Virus record (IMG/VR): IMGVR_UViG_3300032229_000078
Span: 1 to 24,069 of that record
DNA: 24,069 bases
Direction: 5' to 3' (one strand)
Origin: a virus
Shown: positions 6,394 through 22,277 of the stretch, piece after piece
How positions within the stretch are numbered: position 1 is the first letter of the stretch
Layout of the letters: each line of letters begins with the position of its first letter
Position numbers and translations under genes: made by a program
Notes under the pieces: model-generated
The model's database searches: none
What the model saw: the letters and a program-made list of their open reading frames with translations, nothing else
Told to the model about the DNA's origin: nothing

Positions 6394-6930
6394 ATGGCCT
6401 GTGTATCCTATTGCGACACATCCTTGCTTGAGCACGACTTGGTGCTCTGCAACGAATACAAACTTGGCGGAGTTTCCGCCATCATAGTTGGTTCGTGTGG
6501 AACAGAGCTTGTTGATCCTTCTGATGCTGTTGAAATTGATGCGTTGCTTTTATCTGGCGAAGCCAGAATGATTAGCGACATCAGATTCGCACTTCCTGCC
6601 GGCTCACCAATCACTGTTGATTCACCAATCGGCTGCGGTACTTCAATCCGTATCAACGAAGACCGTACTGCTACTCTTTACGATGCTAATGTTACTGATG
6701 GTAACAGCATCTTCTGGAACGATGTTAACAACCGCCGTATCTCTTGGATACTTGCGTACATGTGCGACAGCGGAAAAGTTCTTTATGTAACTGCTCCAGT
6801 TGGAATCACAACATCTGCAAACTTCATCTTGCCTGAGCAGAACAACGAGCTTCAGCGTTATGAGGTGACATTCTCTTGGAGAAACAAAAACATTCCTGCA
6901 CAATACGATGCGCCTCCAGGTGTATTCTGA
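6394..6930 (+). CDS. Probable abundant virion protein (tail tube candidate)
   Basis: The protein has 178 residues beginning MACVSYCDTSLLEHDLVLC, with six cysteines and a mainly beta-strand pattern (TATLYDANVTDGNSIFWNDV). It has its own promoter-like element and an 80-base leader. Its codons favour T-ending forms (GCT, ACT, GTT), as in the major capsid gene and unlike the tail genes before it, which suggests high expression. Size, beta content, position among tail genes and expression features fit a major tail tube protein, but I did not recognise a family motif. A capsid decoration protein is another possibility. The next gene starts two bases after its stop. Confidence 0.5.
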   Translation: MACVSYCDTSLLEHDLVLCNEYKLGGVSAIIVGSCGTELVDPSDAVEIDALLLSGEARMISDIRFALPAGSPITVDSPIGCGTSIRINEDRTATLYDANVTDGNSIFWNDVNNRRISWILAYMCDSGKVLYVTAPVGITTSANFILPEQNNELQRYEVTFSWRNKNIPAQYDAPPGVF

Positions 6931-6932
6931 TA

Positions 6933-7856
6933 ATGGCTGAGGAATTGACACAAACCACTCAGAGCATCACTCCATCAACTGGAGTGGTGCTTCTTGCGTT
7001 TGGTAAACCGCAATATTATTGGATGGCTTACAACATGGCGTGGTCAATCTACCGCTCCAATCCAACAATAAACATTGCTTTAATTTCCGATAGTGAAACA
7101 AGAGCAGTGAATCACGTTCACGAGCTGTCAGAGCTCATCGATATACATGTTGAACTGCAAGAGCAGGACATGTACACGAATAAGAAATTAGATCCGGGCA
7201 AGGCGAAAGTTTTGCTTTATGATTACCTACCATTCGACAATAATCTTTATCTTGATGTCGATGGTATTTGCTTGAAAGATTTAGGGCCACTCATTGATGG
7301 CTTAGTAAATAGGGGAATCGATTATGGCACATCGATACACGGCACTCATACATTAGACAAAGGCCGCGACTTTAGTGAGATGGTTTGGTCTTATGCAGAT
7401 GAGTTCATAAGTCATTTTGGTATCAAAGAAGATGCGATGCTTTATGGCATTAATAGCAGCATTCAGTTTATAAAGAAAGGCGATGTATGCGCTAACCTTT
7501 TCAAGGTTGCAGCGGAACAGTTTATAAATAACCCAATGCCACTGCACAAGCTTCGAGCAAAGTGGGGCGGAGGGCAGCCAGACGAATTATATTACAATGC
7601 GGCTTTATGCTTGACGGAAACAACACCGCAGCACATTGAGGCGGTATGCTTTCAGACTAAGCGAAGCTTGACCTTTGAGCAGATACAAGACGGATTCTAC
7701 ATTATGAGTTATTATGGAGGTAAGAGATTCACTCCAACATTCTACATTGATTGGCTTGATAGATTGATGAAGTCATGGATGCAGCAAGATGGAAAGAAGC
7801 ATAATTATTTGATTAACCGAATAACAGACTATAAATATGTCGATGGAAAACGCTAA
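6933..7856 (+). CDS. GT-A fold glycosyltransferase
   Basis: Starting at ATG 6933, just after the previous stop (TGATAATG), the protein has 307 residues. An in-frame ATG at 6876 would run into the previous gene and add a non-homologous-looking stretch. The N terminus VVLLAFGKPQYYWMAYNMAWS and following ALISDSE fit the nucleotide-sugar-binding part of a GT-A fold. YLDVDGICLKDL at 107-118 carries the DxD motif (D108, D110), which binds metal and the sugar nucleotide in this fold. GGGQPDELYYNAAL at 212-225 resembles the conserved acceptor/catalytic region of GT8-like enzymes. The substrate is not readable. It lies between virion genes and overlaps the methyltransferase gene by 20 bases, so the two are probably co-expressed late and may modify a virion protein or a host surface glycan. 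Confidence 0.75.
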   Translation: MAEELTQTTQSITPSTGVVLLAFGKPQYYWMAYNMAWSIYRSNPTINIALISDSETRAVNHVHELSELIDIHVELQEQDMYTNKKLDPGKAKVLLYDYLPFDNNLYLDVDGICLKDLGPLIDGLVNRGIDYGTSIHGTHTLDKGRDFSEMVWSYADEFISHFGIKEDAMLYGINSSIQFIKKGDVCANLFKVAAEQFINNPMPLHKLRAKWGGGQPDELYYNAALCLTETTPQHIEAVCFQTKRSLTFEQIQDGFYIMSYYGGKRFTPTFYIDWLDRLMKSWMQQDGKKHNYLINRITDYKYVDGKR

Positions 7857-8442
7857 ACCAAAGAAAGGCCGCAAGCCTAAAGCAGTGGCAGTCGCTCCTG
7901 CACCAGTTGAGATTGTAACCACTGAAACATTCAAGGAGGTTGCTCGCCATGAGTGGAGTTCTGAAGATGAGTGCGGCCTGTTTATGGCATCACTTATTAA
8001 GATGAGCAACTATAAGACTGTGCTTGAAATTGGAGTATTCCAAGGCGAGACATCGAGGCATCTTATCAATGCGATTCCATTAGGTGGGCAGTTTGTCGGG
8101 ATTGATATCAACGATTATCGCACAGACCTAACCAAGGCGGCAATGAGCGTAGGAGGTAAGTCAATTGACTTTATCTTGGGTAACTCATTAAATGAATTAA
8201 AAAACTTGCCTCATGGTCATTTCGACCTTATCTTTGTTGACGGAGACCACAGCATCAATCATGTGCTTCAAGAGTTCAGATTGATTGAGAAGCTTGTTGC
8301 TAAAGGTGGAGTGATGGTATACCATGATACATTGCATCTTGAAGGCCCAAGCAAAGTTGTAAAGTTCACAAGCAATTACAGATATAAATCAGTCACGCTT
8401 AACACACCTGAAGGGCGAGGCATCTCAATCATACACCGATGA
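7837..8442 (+). CDS. Class I SAM-dependent methyltransferase
   Basis: The protein has 201 residues. A basic, Ala/Pro-rich N-terminal tail (KPKKGRKPKAVAVAPAP) precedes the catalytic domain. Motif I is VLEIGVFQGETS at 62-73, the acidic end of strand 2 is VGIDIND with D90, and FDLIFVDGDH at 129-138 plus KGGVMVYHDT at 156-165 complete a Rossmann-type methyltransferase of the Methyltransf_24 kind. That group contains enzymes acting on sugars and small molecules, so a sugar-methylating role alongside the neighbouring glycosyltransferase is plausible but inferred. No DNA-methyltransferase catalytic motif (such as DPPY) is present. ATG 7843 is an alternative start two codons downstream. The gene overlaps the glycosyltransferase by 20 bases. 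Confidence 0.8.
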   Translation: MSMENAKPKKGRKPKAVAVAPAPVEIVTTETFKEVARHEWSSEDECGLFMASLIKMSNYKTVLEIGVFQGETSRHLINAIPLGGQFVGIDINDYRTDLTKAAMSVGGKSIDFILGNSLNELKNLPHGHFDLIFVDGDHSINHVLQEFRLIEKLVAKGGVMVYHDTLHLEGPSKVVKFTSNYRYKSVTLNTPEGRGISIIHR

Positions 8443-10404: not shown

Positions 10405-11299
10405 TGAACTTGTTAAACAAAAAATCAAACTGCTTGAGACTGTTCCGGAGAATATTGTTACGGCGGCAGAGAAGGCACAGCGAGATGCGTGGCGCAAACT
10501 TGCACCGCTACTCGCAGAGATGGATGTTGATGCAACAGGCAACATCAGACAGACCGAGGATAACATTCGAAGAATTGGATTAATTACAGAGGAGCTTAAC
10601 AAGGTGCTTGCAGGCGGCGAATACAGAGCCGCCGTGCAGTCCTTCCTTGCTTCAATCGATGAAGGTGTGCAGCTCACTGATGAGATTGCAAAGAAGATAG
10701 ACAGCACCTTCCAACCTGACAACGTACAAAAGCAACTACTCGCCATCTCCAAGCAGAATGCAATCAATGCCTTCTTTGGTTCTGGACTCCGCGAGAATGT
10801 TACTCAGCCATTCCTTGAGCAGCTGACGGCAAACGTAGCTGCTCGTGCTCCACTGCGCGAAGCGGTGAAAGCATTGCAAGGAGTGATTGAGGGAACAGAT
10901 GCAAACGATGGCAGGCTGCTTGCCAATGTGCGAACGACTGCCAACACCGCACAAGCCATCGCAGATAGAAGCTATGCGGCGGCAGTTAATGAGGAGCTCG
11001 GCATTGAATACTTCCAATACTTGGGCGGAGAGATACCTACAACAAGACCGTTCTGCGCACATCGAGAAGGCGAGATATATCACCGAAAGGAGATTGAAGC
11101 TTGGGGCGATGGCAAGAACTCGGCAGGTATCAACGACATCAGAAACGGCACATGGGATGGTCGTATCGATGGCACTGACTCACGCAGCATCTTCACCTTT
11201 GTTGGTGGTTGGAACTGCCGCCACTTCCTTGTTCCAGTAATCAAGCAGCGAGTTCCTGCAAGTGTTATTGCAAGAGCGGAGGCGGAAGGTTTTGCTTAG
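10391..11299 (+). CDS. Phage head morphogenesis protein, Mu gpF-like
   Basis: The protein has 302 residues: a helical N-terminal two thirds, then the compact C-terminal domain of the Mu F-like minor head family. The diagnostic part is TTRPFCAHREGEIYHRKEIE followed by GGWNCRHFLVPV, with paired Cys and His residues probably binding a metal. Members are internal or portal-associated head proteins, sometimes ejected with the DNA. The position straight after the portal fits. The TAG at 11297-11299 runs into the stop of the convergent minus-strand gene (TAA, complement of 11296-11298), so the two coding regions meet tail to tail. Confidence 0.8.
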   Translation: MASFDELVKQKIKLLETVPENIVTAAEKAQRDAWRKLAPLLAEMDVDATGNIRQTEDNIRRIGLITEELNKVLAGGEYRAAVQSFLASIDEGVQLTDEIAKKIDSTFQPDNVQKQLLAISKQNAINAFFGSGLRENVTQPFLEQLTANVAARAPLREAVKALQGVIEGTDANDGRLLANVRTTANTAQAIADRSYAAAVNEELGIEYFQYLGGEIPTTRPFCAHREGEIYHRKEIEAWGDGKNSAGINDIRNGTWDGRIDGTDSRSIFTFVGGWNCRHFLVPVIKQRVPASVIARAEAEGFA

Positions 11300-11832
11300 G
11301 AATTTAGCTTGCTCTTTAGATCGGATTCAATTGATTCAAGTTCAGAGTTTAAATCTTTAAGTTTGTTAGCCATTTCATTACACAGTTTTACCGCTTCGTT
11401 AGCTTTATCAATTGCCTCATTCTTACTTAAATCTCTTTGAGTCTGCAAATTATAAACTCTTTGTGAGTATTCCTTTTTAGTTTTCTCCAATTTAATAATT
11501 TGAGAATTAAGTAATCTAATTTTTTCATCCCTCTCATGTATTTTTATAAGTGATGATTTATATTTTATTTCTAATTCAACAATTTTAGAATTGCTTATAT
11601 CAATATTTAATTTTTTTAGTTTATTAAATTTCGCCTCTTGTTCATCAATTGCAATTTTAAGATTTTCGTTCTTAGATTTAAGTTTTCCATTTAGATCTTT
11701 TGATTTATTAAGCAATGATTCAAAATCCTTAATGATAACATTTAAACATTTGTTTCTATCAATCTTATCTATTAAAATTACCAAAGATATAATTAGCATT
11801 ATTGCAATCACGACAATTATCATTGTTTCCAT
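11296..11832 (-). CDS. Minus-strand membrane-anchored coiled-coil protein (moron-like)
   Basis: This is the only minus-strand gene in the window, 178 residues. Residues about 4-21 are one hydrophobic segment (IIVVIAIMLIISLVILI), followed by a Lys/Glu-rich region to the end with heptad-like spacing, predicted as a long coiled coil (KSKNENLKIAIDEQEAKFNK). No catalytic motif is seen. Base composition differs sharply: 11521-11580 has 13 G/C in 60, against 35 in 60 at 10801-10860 in the gene beside it. It has its own promoter (TTG, 18 bp, TACATTTG). These are hallmarks of a late-acquired moron. A superinfection-exclusion or host-membrane role is possible but only inferred. Confidence 0.7.
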   Translation of the reverse strand: METMIIVVIAIMLIISLVILIDKIDRNKCLNVIIKDFESLLNKSKDLNGKLKSKNENLKIAIDEQEAKFNKLKKLNIDISNSKIVELEIKYKSSLIKIHERDEKIRLLNSQIIKLEKTKKEYSQRVYNLQTQRDLSKNEAIDKANEAVKLCNEMANKLKDLNSELESIESDLKSKLNS

Positions 11833-15285: not shown

Positions 15286-15746
15286 TGGCTACGCCGAAAG
15301 AGATAAGTGATCGCATCAATGCTCTGTTCTCTGATTGGAATAGCGGCTTCACTCCACTATCTTTTGCAGTGCAGGACATGAGACGAGAGATGTATATCCG
15401 CATCTTTGGTATTGATACTGGAAGAGGTAGGAATCAAGCAGGCAACTTCTTACCGACTAAGCCTTACACTCCTGCTTATGCTAAAATAAAACAAGCAAAT
15501 GGCCGTCCTCCATTGGAGCTTACAGGATTCCTCAAGCGATCGTTTGCAACAGACCAAACTACGATTATAACCGAAGGATTTGATACTGCAATCTACACTG
15601 TTGCAGATGAAGCAGGCAAGGTAGAAGGGCTTGAGAAACTTTACGGAACAATATTTAAACCAACAAAAGAGGAGCAAGATAGAATGTTGCAACTTCACGC
15701 AGACTTGTTGGTTGAGCAAATATCAATACAGATTTCTAAACCATGA
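15285..15746 (+). CDS. Tail completion / virion morphogenesis protein
   Basis: Using the TAATG overlap start at 15285 the protein has 153 residues, MATPKEISDRINALFSDWNS. An in-frame ATG at 15246 lies inside the previous gene and is less likely. The helical N terminus, the segment YTPAYAKIKQANGRPPLELT followed by GFLKRSFATD, and the C-terminal IFKPTKEEQDRMLQLHADLL match the pattern of Mu gpG / HK97 gp10-like neck proteins that join tail to head. The position after head genes and before the fibre gene agrees. It overlaps the fibre gene by an ATGA. Confidence 0.6.
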   Translation: MATPKEISDRINALFSDWNSGFTPLSFAVQDMRREMYIRIFGIDTGRGRNQAGNFLPTKPYTPAYAKIKQANGRPPLELTGFLKRSFATDQTTIITEGFDTAIYTVADEAGKVEGLEKLYGTIFKPTKEEQDRMLQLHADLLVEQISIQISKP

Positions 15747-18298
15747 ATCTACTTAAGACCATCATTGAGCGGCTTAACCAAAGGGTTGAGGTAGCAAATA
15801 TCTTCGACAAGCAGTTCGGCCTTTGCGAGCTTAATGCAAACGGCAACGAGAAGGCTTGGGTGCATTACATCGGCAATGGTCAAGCGGAGGTTGTTACCAA
15901 CTTCGATGCTAAGCAAGGGACGTTGTTCTGGGCTAAGCGTGGCAAGGTAACAGTTACCAAGACTGATGCCTATAAGATGAGTGGCTGCAAGCAGTTGTAC
16001 GTGACAAGCTTTCCGCTGACTGCTTATGCAGTGGTGCGCAAGAGTCATCTGCCATGCGATGGAGATGATGCTCAGGATTGGCTTGCTTCGAGAATTTACA
16101 AGCTGACGAGTGGCACTGATTCACAATTTAAGCAGAGCATAGGTGTTATTAACTACGAGGTAATTCCGAGCGGTTACATCAACGAGATTAAAAGCCTAAC
16201 AGCAAACTATGAATTTGCTTGTGTGACTGTCGACTTTGATGTGCAAGTTATAACTACCACTGAGGATGGATGCTATGACATCTGTGCAACAGGCGACATT
16301 CCACTTCCAGACTTCCAACCTTGCACACCTTGTTTGACAGAGGTTGCTGTTGATGGTGTTACCATCACCGGAAACGGAACTCCTTCAGATCCATTGGTGG
16401 CAGTTGGTGGCGAAGGTGGAGCGATATCGGTGGAGGAAGAAGGAGTTGAGGTAACACCAGTTGCAACGACATTGAACTTTACAGGCGAAGGAGTCACAGC
16501 ATCACTGACATCACCTGGAGTGGTTGAGGTAAATGTGCCGGGCGGAAGTAGCACATTATTAGCCTTGCCGTTTAGCACAGACCATTTAATTGCAACAGGC
16601 AACGCTTATGCTGTTAATGATGTCGTATACTATTTAGGAAATGTTTACCGCTGCATTGCGTCTAATGATTCAATACTTCCAACAAATGCAACGTACTGGA
16701 CAAGTCTTGGCTCAGGCTTTCCGCTTGTCCAAAGGCCTGCCGATTGGAATGCAACAACCGGCAATAATCAGATATTAAACAAGCCGACAATTCCAGTGCT
16801 TCCTGCAACCATTGTGGAAGATGTAACTGCAACAGCTCCATTGTCATCAAGCGGTGGAGCAAATCCCGACATCAGCATCACTCAAGCAGATGGAAGCACT
16901 GATGGATACTTGAGCTCTACCGATTGGAGCACCTTCAATGGCAAGTTCGATGTGCCAACAGGAACAAACACCGACTACCTTGATGGCACTGGAGCACCGA
17001 CTGCATTTCCGACATTACCTACCGGCACTGTCACCTCGGTCGACCTTACAATGCCTGCCGCATTCTCTGTCACTGGCAATCCTGTGACAACGAGCGGAAC
17101 ATTGGCGGTTGCTGCGGCAGGACTCAGCACGCAGTACATCAGAGGTGATGGGCAGCTTGCAAACTTTCCGACATCAATCGGCGGTGGATCAAGTGTTAGC
17201 TACTACCTCAACGGATCAGTAAATCAAGGTACAATTGGCGGCTCTACTTATTACGAGATGAGCAGGACACCAATCTTAGGAGCTGGAACTGACTTCCAAA
17301 GAACCAATGCTCAAGGAAATGGATTGATTGCACAATTTATCACAGATGCAGGCGATCCTAATCTCTTAGCAATACCGGCAGGGAATTGGAATCTTGAGTT
17401 ATATTTTAGCTCATCGGCAAGCGGTGGCAGTCCATCAATTTATGTTGAATTATACAAGTATGATGGTGCAACATTTACTTTGATTGCAACTGATTCAGCA
17501 ACACCGGAAGGCATCACAAACGGAACTACAATCGATGCTTACTTTACTGCTTTGGCAGTTCCTTCGACAACACTTGCGCTTACTGATAGACTTGCTTTGC
17601 GTGTATTTGTAACTACCTCGGGGCGCACAATAACATTGCACACAGAGAATGGTCACTTATGCCAAGTTATTACCACTTTCTCAACTGGGTTAAATTCCTT
17701 AAACGGCTTGACTGCTCAAGTGCAAAACTTTGCAGTAGGAACAAGTGGTACTGATTTTGGCATTAGTTCAGCAACAAGCACTCACACCTTTAACCTACCA
17801 ACGGCATCAGCTACTAACAGAGGTGCATTGAGCACAGCTGATTGGACTACCTTCAACGGCAAGCAAGATGCACTGGTAAGCGGCACTAACATCAAGACAA
17901 TCAACTCGACATCGATACTTGGAAGCGGAAACTTTGCCACTCCATTCGAGCTTGTTGTTGCTGCATCAGATGAGACTACTGCGCTAACTACCGGAACCGC
18001 TAAGATAACTTTCCGCATGCCGAGGGCTGTGACACTTACTTCTGTAAGAGCATCGCTCACAACGGCTCAGGCAAGTGGTAGCATCTTCACAGTTGACATC
18101 AATGAAGGCGGAACAAGCATCTTAAGCACTAAACTGACAATCGACAACACCGAAAAGACAAGCACAACGGCTGCCACTCCTCCAGTGATCAGCGATGCTA
18201 ACCTTGCCGATGATGCAGAGATGACAATCGATATTGACCAGATTGGAAATGGTACGGCAAAAGGATTGAAGGTAATGTTAATAGGTACTTACGCATGA
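15743..18298 (+). CDS. Tail fibre protein with a distinct N-terminal neck/tail-like domain
   Basis: The protein has 851 residues. Residues 1 to about 175 form a separate alpha/beta domain (MNLLKTIIERLNQRVEVANI, QFGLCELNANGNEKAWVHYI), probably the attachment domain or a fused tail-completion domain. A Cys-containing linker (CATGDIPLPDFQPCTPC) leads to classic fibre modules: VDGVTITGNGTPSDPLVAVG, GTVTSVDLTMPAAFSVTGNP (from 428), STQYIRGDGQLANFP (about 462), and two copies of an LSSxDWxTFNGK motif near 390 and 696, the second followed by SGTNIKTINSTSILGSGN. The C-terminal 120 residues are a beta-sandwich-like tip (AKITFRMPRAVTLTSVRASL). It overlaps both neighbours by ATGA. It recognises the host surface; the receptor is not readable. 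Confidence 0.8.
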   Translation: MNLLKTIIERLNQRVEVANIFDKQFGLCELNANGNEKAWVHYIGNGQAEVVTNFDAKQGTLFWAKRGKVTVTKTDAYKMSGCKQLYVTSFPLTAYAVVRKSHLPCDGDDAQDWLASRIYKLTSGTDSQFKQSIGVINYEVIPSGYINEIKSLTANYEFACVTVDFDVQVITTTEDGCYDICATGDIPLPDFQPCTPCLTEVAVDGVTITGNGTPSDPLVAVGGEGGAISVEEEGVEVTPVATTLNFTGEGVTASLTSPGVVEVNVPGGSSTLLALPFSTDHLIATGNAYAVNDVVYYLGNVYRCIASNDSILPTNATYWTSLGSGFPLVQRPADWNATTGNNQILNKPTIPVLPATIVEDVTATAPLSSSGGANPDISITQADGSTDGYLSSTDWSTFNGKFDVPTGTNTDYLDGTGAPTAFPTLPTGTVTSVDLTMPAAFSVTGNPVTTSGTLAVAAAGLSTQYIRGDGQLANFPTSIGGGSSVSYYLNGSVNQGTIGGSTYYEMSRTPILGAGTDFQRTNAQGNGLIAQFITDAGDPNLLAIPAGNWNLELYFSSSASGGSPSIYVELYKYDGATFTLIATDSATPEGITNGTTIDAYFTALAVPSTTLALTDRLALRVFVTTSGRTITLHTENGHLCQVITTFSTGLNSLNGLTAQVQNFAVGTSGTDFGISSATSTHTFNLPTASATNRGALSTADWTTFNGKQDALVSGTNIKTINSTSILGSGNFATPFELVVAASDETTALTTGTAKITFRMPRAVTLTSVRASLTTAQASGSIFTVDINEGGTSILSTKLTIDNTEKTSTTAATPPVISDANLADDAEMTIDIDQIGNGTAKGLKVMLIGTYA

Positions 18299-19325: not shown

Positions 19326-19795
19326 AGATAACCGATTTAACACCACTTGCTACGGCAGCCAGTGGAGACCTATTATATATCGTTGATATATCCGACACAA
19401 CGGAATCCCCTCAAGGTACATCGAAGAGCATTGAGGTGGGAAACTTAGCTGCTAATGCAAGTGCTGCATTTGCACCAACATTAAGTGGTTTAACAGATGC
19501 AATTATATCAACTGGCGGGCCAGATGGAATGTATTCTAAAAATGGCAATGTTGTAACATTAACATTTTTATTTAATATAGAATTAGATTTTACAATTGCT
19601 TTAACTGGCACTTTAAATTTTACTTTGCCATTTGCAATTGGCAGTGGTTTTGGATATGGAGTTGGAGTTGTAGATACTGAAGAAAATATCAATGTTACTA
19701 TTTCTGGCAATGTTTTTAAAGTTAATACTGATAACTCATCATTAGTTTTAGGCTTGACTCCAGTATATTGTACTATGCAATATATTATCATCTAA
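19313..19795 (+). CDS. Fibre tip / accessory tail protein
   Basis: From ATG 19313 the protein has 160 residues, starting MAGVKITDLTPLATAASGDL, a very common opening of phage tail fibre and neck-fibre proteins. An in-frame ATG at 19223 lies in the previous gene and adds an unrelated basic stretch. The C-terminal half is a short beta-rich domain (VVTLTFLFNIELDFTIALTG) encoded by clearly AT-rich DNA (about 19540-19760), unlike the N-terminal half, which suggests a swapped receptor-contacting domain. The stop overlaps the lysozyme start as TAATG. Confidence 0.65.
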   Translation: MAGVKITDLTPLATAASGDLLYIVDISDTTESPQGTSKSIEVGNLAANASAAFAPTLSGLTDAIISTGGPDGMYSKNGNVVTLTFLFNIELDFTIALTGTLNFTLPFAIGSGFGYGVGVVDTEENINVTISGNVFKVNTDNSSLVLGLTPVYCTMQYIII

Positions 19796-20250
19796 TGAAA
19801 ACCTCTGACAACGGCCTGCGCCTCATACAGGAGTTTGAGGGCTTGCGCTTAACCAGTTACCTCTGCTCGGCAGGAGTGCCGACCATTGGCTACGGCGCGA
19901 CCTACTATGCAGATGGCAGCAAGGTAAAGCTCGGGCAGACAATCACCAATGCTCAAGCGGTGCAACTTCTTAAGGATCATGTTAAGGAATTCGAGCAAAG
20001 TGTGATTGGTCTGCTTAACACAACCAAGGTAAATCAGAATCAGTTTGATGCGCTTGTAAGTTTTGCATTCAACCTCGGTGCGGCAAACCTTGCAAAGTCT
20101 CAGCTGCTAAGATTCATCAAAGCCAACCCAAACGACCCGAAGATTGCAGCTGAGTTCGCAAAGTGGAACAGAGCAGGCGGAGAAGTTTCTCGCGGACTTG
20201 TAAGAAGAAGAAAGAAAGAAGCGGAACTATACTTCACAAAAATCGTTTGA
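19795..20250 (+). CDS. Endolysin, GH24 lysozyme (muramidase)
   Basis: From the TAATG start the protein has 151 residues, a usual length for the family. It cleaves the MurNAc-GlcNAc bond of peptidoglycan. The catalytic region is FEGLRLTSYLCSAGVPTIGY with E15, C24 and T30, an exact E-8-(D/C)-5-T spacing as in the P21/P1-type GH24 enzymes, here with Cys in place of the more common Asp. The rest (FDALVSFAFNLGAANLAKSQ, GGEVSRGLVRRRKKEAELY) is typical. No signal peptide or SAR segment is visible, so export should depend on the holin-like product of the next gene. The in-frame ATG at 19768 is rejected because it lies inside the previous gene. Confidence 0.9.
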   Translation: MKTSDNGLRLIQEFEGLRLTSYLCSAGVPTIGYGATYYADGSKVKLGQTITNAQAVQLLKDHVKEFEQSVIGLLNTTKVNQNQFDALVSFAFNLGAANLAKSQLLRFIKANPNDPKIAAEFAKWNRAGGEVSRGLVRRRKKEAELYFTKIV

Positions 20251-20255
20251 CAATT

Positions 20256-20456
20256 ATGGCCGCAAGAAGAGTCAATAAGCCCAGGCAAGTGCTTGACATA
20301 ATTATCAAGTACTGGAGGCCGACCATTGGCTCATTGGTAATTCTTAGTTCTGTGTTTGCGCTTATCTTTAAGCAGATAACCACAGAGACTCTTGCAGCTA
20401 TTGTGGCCGCAATGGTAGCCGCAGGATACATACCTAAAGCAAACGACAATGGATGA
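20256..20456 (+). CDS. Holin-like small membrane protein
   Basis: From ATG 20256, five bases after the lysozyme stop, the protein has 66 residues. A basic N terminus (MAARRVNKPRQ) is followed by a hydrophobic segment at about 20-40 (YWRPTIGSLVILSSVFALIF) and a shorter Ala-rich one (ETLAAIVAAMVAAGYIP). Size, two hydrophobic segments and the neighbouring lysozyme fit a holin that opens the inner membrane. An in-frame ATG at 20163 lies in the lysozyme gene and is rejected. The overall family is not identifiable by motif. Confidence 0.65.
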   Translation: MAARRVNKPRQVLDIIIKYWRPTIGSLVILSSVFALIFKQITTETLAAIVAAMVAAGYIPKANDNG

Positions 20457-20925
20457 AGGAAGAGACTCAACGTATACTACAATTGACGAGGGTTGCGTGG
20501 TAGGTCTTGGGTGCAAAGTCCATACTCATCATCACACAATTCATATCGAGCCGCAAATCGTTTACCAATCGATGGTGAAATTCACTATCTTTGGCAAGCA
20601 ATATTGCACTAATCAATGGGGGCAAACTTATGAGCTTCCTGCCGATGAGCCAATACCAGAGCCGACTCTTATGCAGCAGACCTACGCAAGCGATACAATC
20701 ACACCAACCACATCTGCATTCTTGCTTGCTCCTAAGCCAGAGGCAAAAATCATCATTAAGCCTCGCACTGAGTTCGCAGAGTACAAGCCGACAATGGATG
20801 GGCCTGTGATGGGAACTTTGCTTGTGTTTACAATTTACATCACTGCACATTGGGCATGGAACTCAATGGGCGCATGGAATAATCTATATAGCGAACTCTC
20901 GGCATGTCTTCGCTCTTCATCTTAG
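20449..20925 (+). CDS. Membrane protein with Cys/His cluster, unknown function
   Basis: The protein has 158 residues. The start overlaps the holin-like gene by 8 bases and the end overlaps the PAS-HisKA gene by 22 bases. The N terminus carries C16, C22, H25, H27, H28, H29 and H32 (CKVHTHHHTIHIE), a potential metal site. The middle is Pro-rich (ADEPIPEPT), and one hydrophobic segment lies at about 122-140 (MGTLLVFTIYITAHWAW). This could be a membrane-linked lysis accessory or a partner of the next gene's product, but nothing in the sequence decides this. I do not recognise the family. Confidence 0.55.
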   Translation: MDEGRDSTYTTIDEGCVVGLGCKVHTHHHTIHIEPQIVYQSMVKFTIFGKQYCTNQWGQTYELPADEPIPEPTLMQQTYASDTITPTTSAFLLAPKPEAKIIIKPRTEFAEYKPTMDGPVMGTLLVFTIYITAHWAWNSMGAWNNLYSELSACLRSSS

Positions 20926-21470
20926 AACGATCCATCGACCTCTTTTATGTGGTCACCGACCTTGAAGGTAAGATTTTCACGAACAATGAACTGTTCAAGA
21001 ACTATGTCAGCCATATCAAGCCAAGCAAAATCACTGATATCATCAGCATCGAAGGTGACAAAGCAGACTTTATCGAGGCCATTGAACGAGCTCGCAAACA
21101 TTCGCCTGAGCCTTCAAGAGTCTATGCTCGCACACGACAGAAGAACACAAGCGACAGATATAATGTTTGGAATTGCTTTGCGATTGATGACACTCTACAC
21201 TTTGTTGGCATCCAGATAGTCGATGTAACTTCAATCAGCTCGCATGAGCATGAGCGGCAGAAGAATCTTCTTGAGGAGTTCCGCTTCATGCTTAGCCATG
21301 AGCTCCGCCAACCACTGACTAACATCGCAGGACTTGTGCAAATGCTCATTCAGCATCATGTTGCAGATGATATTGATCGCAAGGAACTGCTCGGCATGAT
21401 AAGTTCATCAGTTAACAAGCTTGACGATGCCATCAAGGCATTGGTAAAAAAAGCCGCTCGAGAATTATGA
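20904..21470 (+). CDS. PAS + HisKA (DHp) protein lacking the kinase ATPase domain
   Basis: The protein has 188 residues. Residues about 5-110 read as a PAS sensor domain (FYVVTDLEGKIFTNNELF to HFVGIQIVDVTS). Residues 118-185 are a histidine-kinase dimerisation and phospho-acceptor domain, with FRFMLSHELRQPLTNIAGLV holding the H box: H132 (codon 21297-21299), E133 and P137 intact. It stops at TGA 21468-21470, and neither this gene nor the next encodes the N, G1 or G2 boxes of a HATPase_c domain. It has no membrane segment. It cannot autophosphorylate alone; it might take or return phosphate with host proteins, or form mixed dimers with a host kinase. It sits in the lysis region and is linked by ATGA to the next gene, so it is probably expressed late. 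Confidence 0.8.
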   Translation: MSSLFILERSIDLFYVVTDLEGKIFTNNELFKNYVSHIKPSKITDIISIEGDKADFIEAIERARKHSPEPSRVYARTRQKNTSDRYNVWNCFAIDDTLHFVGIQIVDVTSISSHEHERQKNLLEEFRFMLSHELRQPLTNIAGLVQMLIQHHVADDIDRKELLGMISSSVNKLDDAIKALVKKAAREL

Positions 21471-21649
21471 CAGAGCAGGAAGCGGACGAAAGACTTGTTA
21501 AGGTTGCCGCTTGGTACGTGATTGAGCGTGAGATGCCTATCTGTGTCGCACTTCAAATCCTGCAAGCTGAGCTCAATGACAAGCGACTATTCTGGGAATC
21601 ATCAAAGACATTGATTAAACTCATTCAAGATGGCATCTGTACGTACTGA
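21467..21649 (+). CDS. Small protein of unknown function
   Basis: The protein has 60 residues, begins at an ATGA overlap with the PAS-HisKA gene and ends 20 bases inside the spanin-like gene. It is predicted mainly helical (EADERLVKVAAWYVIEREMP, ALQILQAELNDKRLFW), with no membrane segment. The tight coupling on both sides supports a real gene. It is not a HATPase domain or a response-regulator receiver: there is no conserved phospho-Asp pocket. Confidence 0.55.
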   Translation: MTEQEADERLVKVAAWYVIEREMPICVALQILQAELNDKRLFWESSKTLIKLIQDGICTY

Positions 21650-22277
21650 AACAATATATCTGGTAGGACTTGTTGTTCTTCTATTTGCTTTGCTCAAGTG
21701 CTGCTCTGATAATGTGACTTCAGATTACCGCCTTAAGCACACGATTTATGAGGACAGCATAGTTATAGCCTCACAAAAGAAGATAATCGCACAGGCGGGC
21801 TCTGATGCAGCCAAACAAGCACAGCAGATTGCTGAGCTCGAAGTTAAAGTCAAGAACGCATCGGAGGTTGTGAAGATTGAGACTCGCACAATCATCAAAA
21901 CGCAAATCAAGCTTGGCGATACGGTGATGATTGATAAGCAGCCATACATCCAACTGCCAAAGCCATTCATAAAGAAAACCGAGTGGTACACAATCGGCGG
22001 CATGATAAACCGACTCGGATGGTTGCAGATTGATTCACTCGTCATTCCGGCAAAGTTCACCTATGCAGTTGGTGACACCATGCGCACTGGCTTTGTCAAC
22101 CGACTGCTTAAGAAGAAGGATACGGTGGTGCGACTAAGAGTCGACAATCCGAATGTGGCCATCGTTGGATTGGAGAACATCTACATCAAACAAGACAAGA
22201 AATGGCATCAGACAACCGCGTTTAAGGTGGGGGTTGGGGTGCTGATTGGAGTGGTTGCAGTCACTGCTGTAAAATAA
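21630..22277 (+). CDS. Spanin-like / Rz-like membrane protein
   Basis: The protein has 215 residues. An N-terminal hydrophobic segment (YLVGLVVLLFALLKCCSDN, about 9-28) is followed by a coiled coil (AKQAQQIAELEVKVKNASEV), a beta-containing middle and a C-terminal hydrophobic segment (FKVGVGVLIGVVAVTAV). The coiled coil between two membrane anchors, last in the lysis region, fits a spanin that disrupts the outer membrane. The Cys pair after the first segment is not a clean lipobox (LLKC). Together with the C-terminal anchor it recalls the unimolecular spanin plan, but an ordinary i-spanin-type protein is also possible. No separate small lipoprotein gene is seen. Confidence 0.55.
   Translation: MASVRTETIYLVGLVVLLFALLKCCSDNVTSDYRLKHTIYEDSIVIASQKKIIAQAGSDAAKQAQQIAELEVKVKNASEVVKIETRTIIKTQIKLGDTVMIDKQPYIQLPKPFIKKTEWYTIGGMINRLGWLQIDSLVIPAKFTYAVGDTMRTGFVNRLLKKKDTVVRLRVDNPNVAIVGLENIYIKQDKKWHQTTAFKVGVGVLIGVVAVTAVK

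Follow-up and report, generated by a model that had tools for sequence, protein, structure and literature searches.

What would a phage do with a protein that carries the phospho-acceptor domain of a sensor histidine kinase, stops where the CA domain should begin, and is encoded among the lysis genes? The question is raised by a gene at 20904 to 21470 (plus strand, ATG start, 188 amino acids [aa]) in an IMG/VR virus record analyzed here over its whole 24,069-nucleotide stretch (the window). A preliminary description of this DNA, made without database searches, had noted a PAS-like domain, an intact H box, and no HATPase_c domain in this open reading frame, and Pfam HisKA, AlphaFold2, VIA-align, and NCBIfam PhoR bore these points out. 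The PAS domain spans residues 11 to 107 (20934 to 21224), the signaling helix and DHp helix α1 span residues 113 to 150 (21240 to 21353), and DHp helix α2 spans residues 156 to 187 (21369 to 21467), all on the plus strand. The H box, LSHELRQPL (from residue 130; 21291 to 21317), contains the candidate phospho-acceptor H132 (21297 to 21299). A conserved stretch, RQxxLLEEFRF, runs directly into the H box, and K183, A184, and R186 are invariant immediately ahead of the stop codon.

Profile searches placed the end of this protein at a domain boundary. HisKA (PF00512) matched residues 129 to 179 of the window protein with 35.4 bits (E = 1.1e-8; curated cutoff, 26.9 bits) and also matched 32 of 32 relatives scanned (E ≤ 1). 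The NCBIfam PhoR model aligned across both the PAS and DHp regions (query 15 to 182 onto model 19 to 173 of 333), and the rest of the model, where its CA domain lies, had no counterpart; the PhoR and AtoS profiles both aligned from residue 15 to about 182, ending where their CA part begins. Pfam gave no PAS match in the window protein and matched PAS_9 in 2 of the 32 relatives (best E = 0.007). Despite this, the PAS assignment is supported by the AlphaFold2 models, VIA-align, and the PhoR alignment.

In two AlphaFold2 models, built from 32 and 44 relatives, strands and helices follow one another as in a PAS domain from residue 11 to residue 105 (strands 11 to 18 and 23 to 27; helices 29 to 34, 43 to 46, and 50 to 65; strands 71 to 78, 84 to 94, and 97 to 105). 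Both contained the two-helix hairpin (residues 113 to 150 and 156 to 187), with pLDDT values of about 80 to 90 for PAS and only about 50 to 75 for the DHp helices. VIA-align, whose matches concern the PAS domain only and have no bearing on DHp, scored residues 11 to 107 at a Z of about 13 to ARNT PAS-B (root mean square deviation of about 2.1 over about 94 residues). In the PDB, Foldseek ranked two LOV-histidine kinases highest, 4gcz and SB2F1, with about 200 aligned columns. The fold prediction, proposed earlier as a check on the HisKA assignment, is HisKA-like, and so is the sequence. PAS-HisKA sensor kinases such as PhoR, AtoS, ThkA (3a0r), and LOV-HK YF1 (4gcz) share the order of PAS, signaling helix, and DHp, and align with the phage protein in sequence and predicted fold through both domains; the phage protein differs from them in lacking the CA domain and a transmembrane part, in carrying Q at H+4, and in its lysis locus. 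We conclude that the product of 20904 to 21470 is a PAS domain, a signaling helix, and a complete HisKA/DHp hairpin that ends at the expected start of the CA domain.

To gather relatives, we scanned IMG/VR viral contigs with several family members as queries and found hundreds. At least 336 loci (some contigs stand under two locus ids) carry a full-length copy, representing 184 distinct proteins, every one 186 or 188 aa long, with pairwise identity down to about 52%; no full-length kinase, the other finding named in advance as evidence against the earlier reading, was found among these close relatives. Chance origin is excluded because the 184 distinct homologs keep the length, the domain end, and the H box. 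None of the 184 distinct proteins departs from H132, E133, R135, or P137, and each thus has the phospho-acceptor His, an acidic residue at +1, and Pro at +5; at H+4 (Q136), 183 keep Q and the remaining one has H. The ratio of nonsynonymous to synonymous change (dN/dS) was 0.085 overall in sampled pairs, and was 0.032 across the H box (residues 126 to 140) versus 0.138 in the remaining DHp. Invariant columns make up 24 of the 77 in DHp, and six preselected H-box columns would all fall among them by chance with a probability of 6e-4. Along α1, positions that presumably face a response regulator, going by EnvZ/HK853 numbering, varied less than the other positions (0.87 versus 1.83 bits). A GTG start is used in 40 of 221 copies. 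A single exception among several hundred contigs, L233 (1200 to 1220), has lost the first 30 codons at a site away from the contig ends, through a deletion or an assembly error.

The surrounding genes, all on the plus strand, form a compact lysis cassette. A phage lysozyme (endolysin; 19795 to 20250; Pfam Phage_lysozyme, 4.4e-42; phrog_7 endolysin, 1.5e-57) is followed by a 66-aa holin candidate (20256 to 20456; hydrophobic segments 22 to 38 and 46 to 62) and a 158-aa protein with one C-terminal hydrophobic segment (20449 to 20925; residues 120 to 136), neither of which matched a family. Downstream of the PAS-DHp gene lie a 60-aa soluble protein (21467 to 21649) and a 215-aa protein (21630 to 22277) with N- and C-terminal hydrophobic segments in what appears to be a spanin-like layout. 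Apart from lysozyme, these neighbors are named from hydrophobic segments and position and are best read as candidates. The 215-aa two-transmembrane protein is a possible spanin of this phage lineage; it gave a weak DUF6549 match below that family's cutoff (E = 2e-4). A Cys is nearly invariant after its first hydrophobic segment, and the residue preceding this Cys is unlike a standard lipobox.

The gene order (lysozyme, 66-aa, 158-aa, PAS-DHp, 60-aa, and 215-aa genes) was fixed across all loci with enough sequence (100% for each gene; 192 to 221 loci per gene). The preliminary description had proposed ATGA linkage to small genes within a cassette at 20449 to 22277. An ATGA overlap does join the PAS-DHp stop to the downstream start (21467), but the upstream overlap is 22 nt (20904 to 20925) and that of the next downstream pair, the 60-aa and 215-aa genes, is 20 nt (21630 to 21649). 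The cassette stands as a conserved set of overlapping genes in the lysis region, with its start moved to the lysozyme gene at about 19795. Across loci, the 22-nt upstream overlap was found in 143 and the 4-nt downstream overlap in 189 of 207. To avoid sampling on PAS-DHp itself, we anchored contigs on the holin and major capsid candidates: the gene was carried by 53 of 53 capsid-anchored and 49 of 49 holin-anchored contigs reaching the site, in a set that represents one phage lineage, with capsid identity down to 78%. The 158-aa and 60-aa neighbors diverge much more than PAS-DHp does.

The genomes of the relatives are mostly about 34 to 38 kb, and two (34,584 and 38,391 bases) are taken as complete because they have identical 127-base ends. 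No HATPase_c or CA domain was detected in the window record, the adjacent genes included as reported earlier, or in 18 relatives (two of them apparently complete), with the same search detecting the domain in 14 of 14 control genomes; nor was a response regulator or receiver domain (Response_reg) found in the 18 relatives. A Bacteroidota host is likely, judging from the portal protein, because the only isolate phages matching it, at 23.6% identity, infect Polaribacter (Bacteroidota).

Among 84,980 genomes of bacteria and archaea, whole-protein patterns found no relative. The H-box pattern gave only two DHp-level matches in bacterial genomes, in Consotaella and a Vicinamibacterales metagenome-assembled genome, and therefore no prophage copy was seen. 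Plasmids yielded nine weak PAS or kinase matches, and PADLOC yielded a single weak match (E = 0.01), which gives no sign of a known defense family. Viruses occasionally carry whole histidine kinases (BFVD and PHROG matches). Among the closest known systems is the phage kinase family phrog_10912, which matches 37 of 44 members (query 14 to 181 onto profile 631 to 797 of 970); that profile describes a large multidomain kinase, not a stand-alone PAS-DHp protein. The earlier remark that two-component fragments are rare in phages agrees with the isolate-phage collection, where PAS-DHp had no match at the limits used and looser criteria, applied with a distant member as query, brought up DHp-level or chance similarity only, but it does not describe the uncultivated lineage, in which the gene is never missing where the site is covered. 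The open literature searched made no mention of a phage protein of this kind. Its parts are already known (PAS, HisKA, and, in cells, the kinase-less ChrS and DivL); a kinase-less PAS-DHp protein kept as a constant lysis-cassette component throughout a large phage lineage was absent from the collections and open literature searched.

Given these features, we tentatively favor, at somewhat short of an even chance, a reading in which the phage encodes a kinase-less partner that docks to a response regulator or kinase of its host, probably a member of the Bacteroidota, and PAS serves as the switch. That all full-length copies end cleanly at the DHp/CA boundary indicates that the protein works without catalysis of its own, and the invariant H box indicates that the phospho-acceptor face is important. 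A dimer bundle with a purely structural role is not expected to need all of the invariant H-box residues, which counts for a host partner, as do the retention of E133, the H-box dN/dS, the six-column probability, and the lower variability of the regulator face of α1. Any partner with a CA or receiver domain should be the host's, since none was found in the 18 relatives. The PAS-DHp protein, small, soluble, and probably dimeric, would be made late together with the lysis proteins, and its DHp bundle would engage a host two-component protein at a time set by the PAS domain. A host response regulator might dock on the DHp face; alternatively, mixed dimers might form with a host histidine kinase, whose CA domain could phosphorylate H132. 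Near the moment of lysis, host signaling, for example an envelope-stress response, would then be weakened or rerouted. Of the roles put forward in the preliminary description, those as a decoy, a phosphate sink, a trans substrate, or a link to lysis timing are conjectural.

Cellular precedents bear on this reading in part. The CA-loss pseudokinases ChrS_CA-fs and DivL and the kinase-modulating kinases RetS/GacS likewise present a kinase-dead DHp that could modulate another kinase, and CA-truncated ChrS, which we count as a precedent, keeps signaling effects via a paralogous kinase (PMC9491836). These proteins are cellular, and the ChrS effect is independent of its His, whereas the phage H132 is invariant. 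The His is dispensable in the ChrS pseudokinase and, in the passage where that paper cites it, in DivL, and truncated ChrS showed no heterodimerization in a two-hybrid test (PMC9491836); the precedents therefore do not prove phospho-chemistry. Against a host partner, the fixed cassette position could equally mean a lysis-protein target, the H box could be conserved for folding or binding, and the conservation of the α1 face may in part be core packing.

The first of these objections leads to the main rival, which we regard as unlikely though still a serious contender: a phosphorylation-independent PAS switch acting on lysis, that is, a lysis-timing regulator or antiholin, in which PAS-controlled opening would let the two-helix bundle bind the 158-aa protein, the 60-aa protein, or the holin candidate. 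Consistent with this, the gene always lies between the holin candidate and the two-transmembrane protein, overlaps its neighbors by 22 and 4 nt in most loci, and is never lost where the site is covered. A precedent exists in the two-helix output sensor (HOS) of RpBphP1, a post-PAS DHp homolog without a kinase domain; opening of its four-helix bundle lets it bind a repressor (PMC6899989). That element follows a photosensory core, is presented only as a distant DHp homolog, and has no phage context. Such a switch would leave the invariant H132, E133, R135, and P137 and the near-invariant Q136 unexplained, and the 158-aa and 60-aa proteins diverge much more than PAS-DHp does, where one might expect a tight partner to change in step with it.

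Quite unlikely, in our estimate, is a phosphorylation-gated lysis switch, in which the stand-alone PAS-DHp protein would be a noncatalytic subunit, trans-phosphorylated by a host kinase and relaying the host's signaling state to the neighboring lysis proteins. A phosphotransferase or phosphate shuttle of the Spo0B/HPt type, in which H132 would move phosphate between host receivers, appears more doubtful again. The intact phospho-acceptor without a catalytic domain speaks for it: Spo0B and HPt proteins likewise are helical dimers that carry a phospho-acceptor His and have no kinase activity, and the DHp-type bundle of Spo0B performs phosphotransfer. Spo0B, however, has no PAS domain and keeps a degenerate C-terminal CA-like domain that is absent here, as every full-length copy of PAS-DHp ends with DHp helix 2; no sequence match between Spo0B and PAS-DHp was found, and the search of 18 relatives turned up no receiver domain.

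A phosphatase role, an option raised in the preliminary description, in which the protein would act on a response regulator and so silence a host regulon, is highly improbable, since the family carries Q at H+4 in place of T or N. Kinases of the FixL type also carry Q at H+4, which keeps this evidence from being final. DHp domains of bifunctional kinases do dephosphorylate regulators, but Willett and Kirby found that T or N at H+4 is needed only for HisKA phosphatase activity and that the N-to-Q substitution at this position in CrdS (N375Q) left no measurable phosphatase activity (PMC3510030). In CrdS and HK853, the Glu after the His is needed exclusively for kinase (phosphorylation) activity (PMC3510030). 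The PAS-DHp family keeps that Glu despite having no CA domain in cis; the retention of E133 together with Q at H+4 argues for accepting or docking and not for dephosphorylating, and, judging from these residues, a phosphatase role is disfavored. Finally, although the CA domain is missing and the L233 copy lacks its first 30 codons, a decayed kinase, a frameshift, or an assembly break, which the earlier reading had left as an alternative, is discarded as practically excluded by the full-length copies with the same end, the overall dN/dS, and the downstream genes that follow directly.

The preferred host-partner reading suggests that hundreds of related phages carrying PAS-DHp plug into the host's own signaling during infection. 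If the protein does act on host two-component proteins, it would offer a natural model for viral control of bacterial phospho-signaling and would naturally put to the test the capabilities of a DHp domain that lacks its catalytic domain. Point mutation of H132, E133, and Q136 provides a direct way to address the question.

Several other loci in the window and its relatives were also observed. Within the structural gene block, an O-methyltransferase-like gene (7837 to 8442; PF01596, E = 2e-19) adjoins a gene (6876 to 7856) that has no Pfam match and looks glycosyltransferase-like in relatives by eye; the pair possibly serves virion or host-surface modification. The C-terminal part (residues 757 to 851) of an 851-aa tail-like protein (15743 to 18298) shares about 43 to 69% identity with tail or virion proteins from phages infecting Rhodobacteraceae, Sphingomonas, Microcystis, Planktothrix, and Xanthomonas, and this segment is apparently a module common to very different phages. 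A 178-aa open reading frame without a Pfam match lies on the reverse strand among forward genes (11296 to 11832) and clusters with a 251-aa reverse-strand open reading frame located between the same two genes in one relative (G007). In the 38,391-base relative (L137/G018; C1:28417-34616), the structural and lysis genes are kept, and the c27/c28 module is replaced by other genes, which by eye resemble DnaB-like helicase, DNA methyltransferase, and nuclease-like genes.
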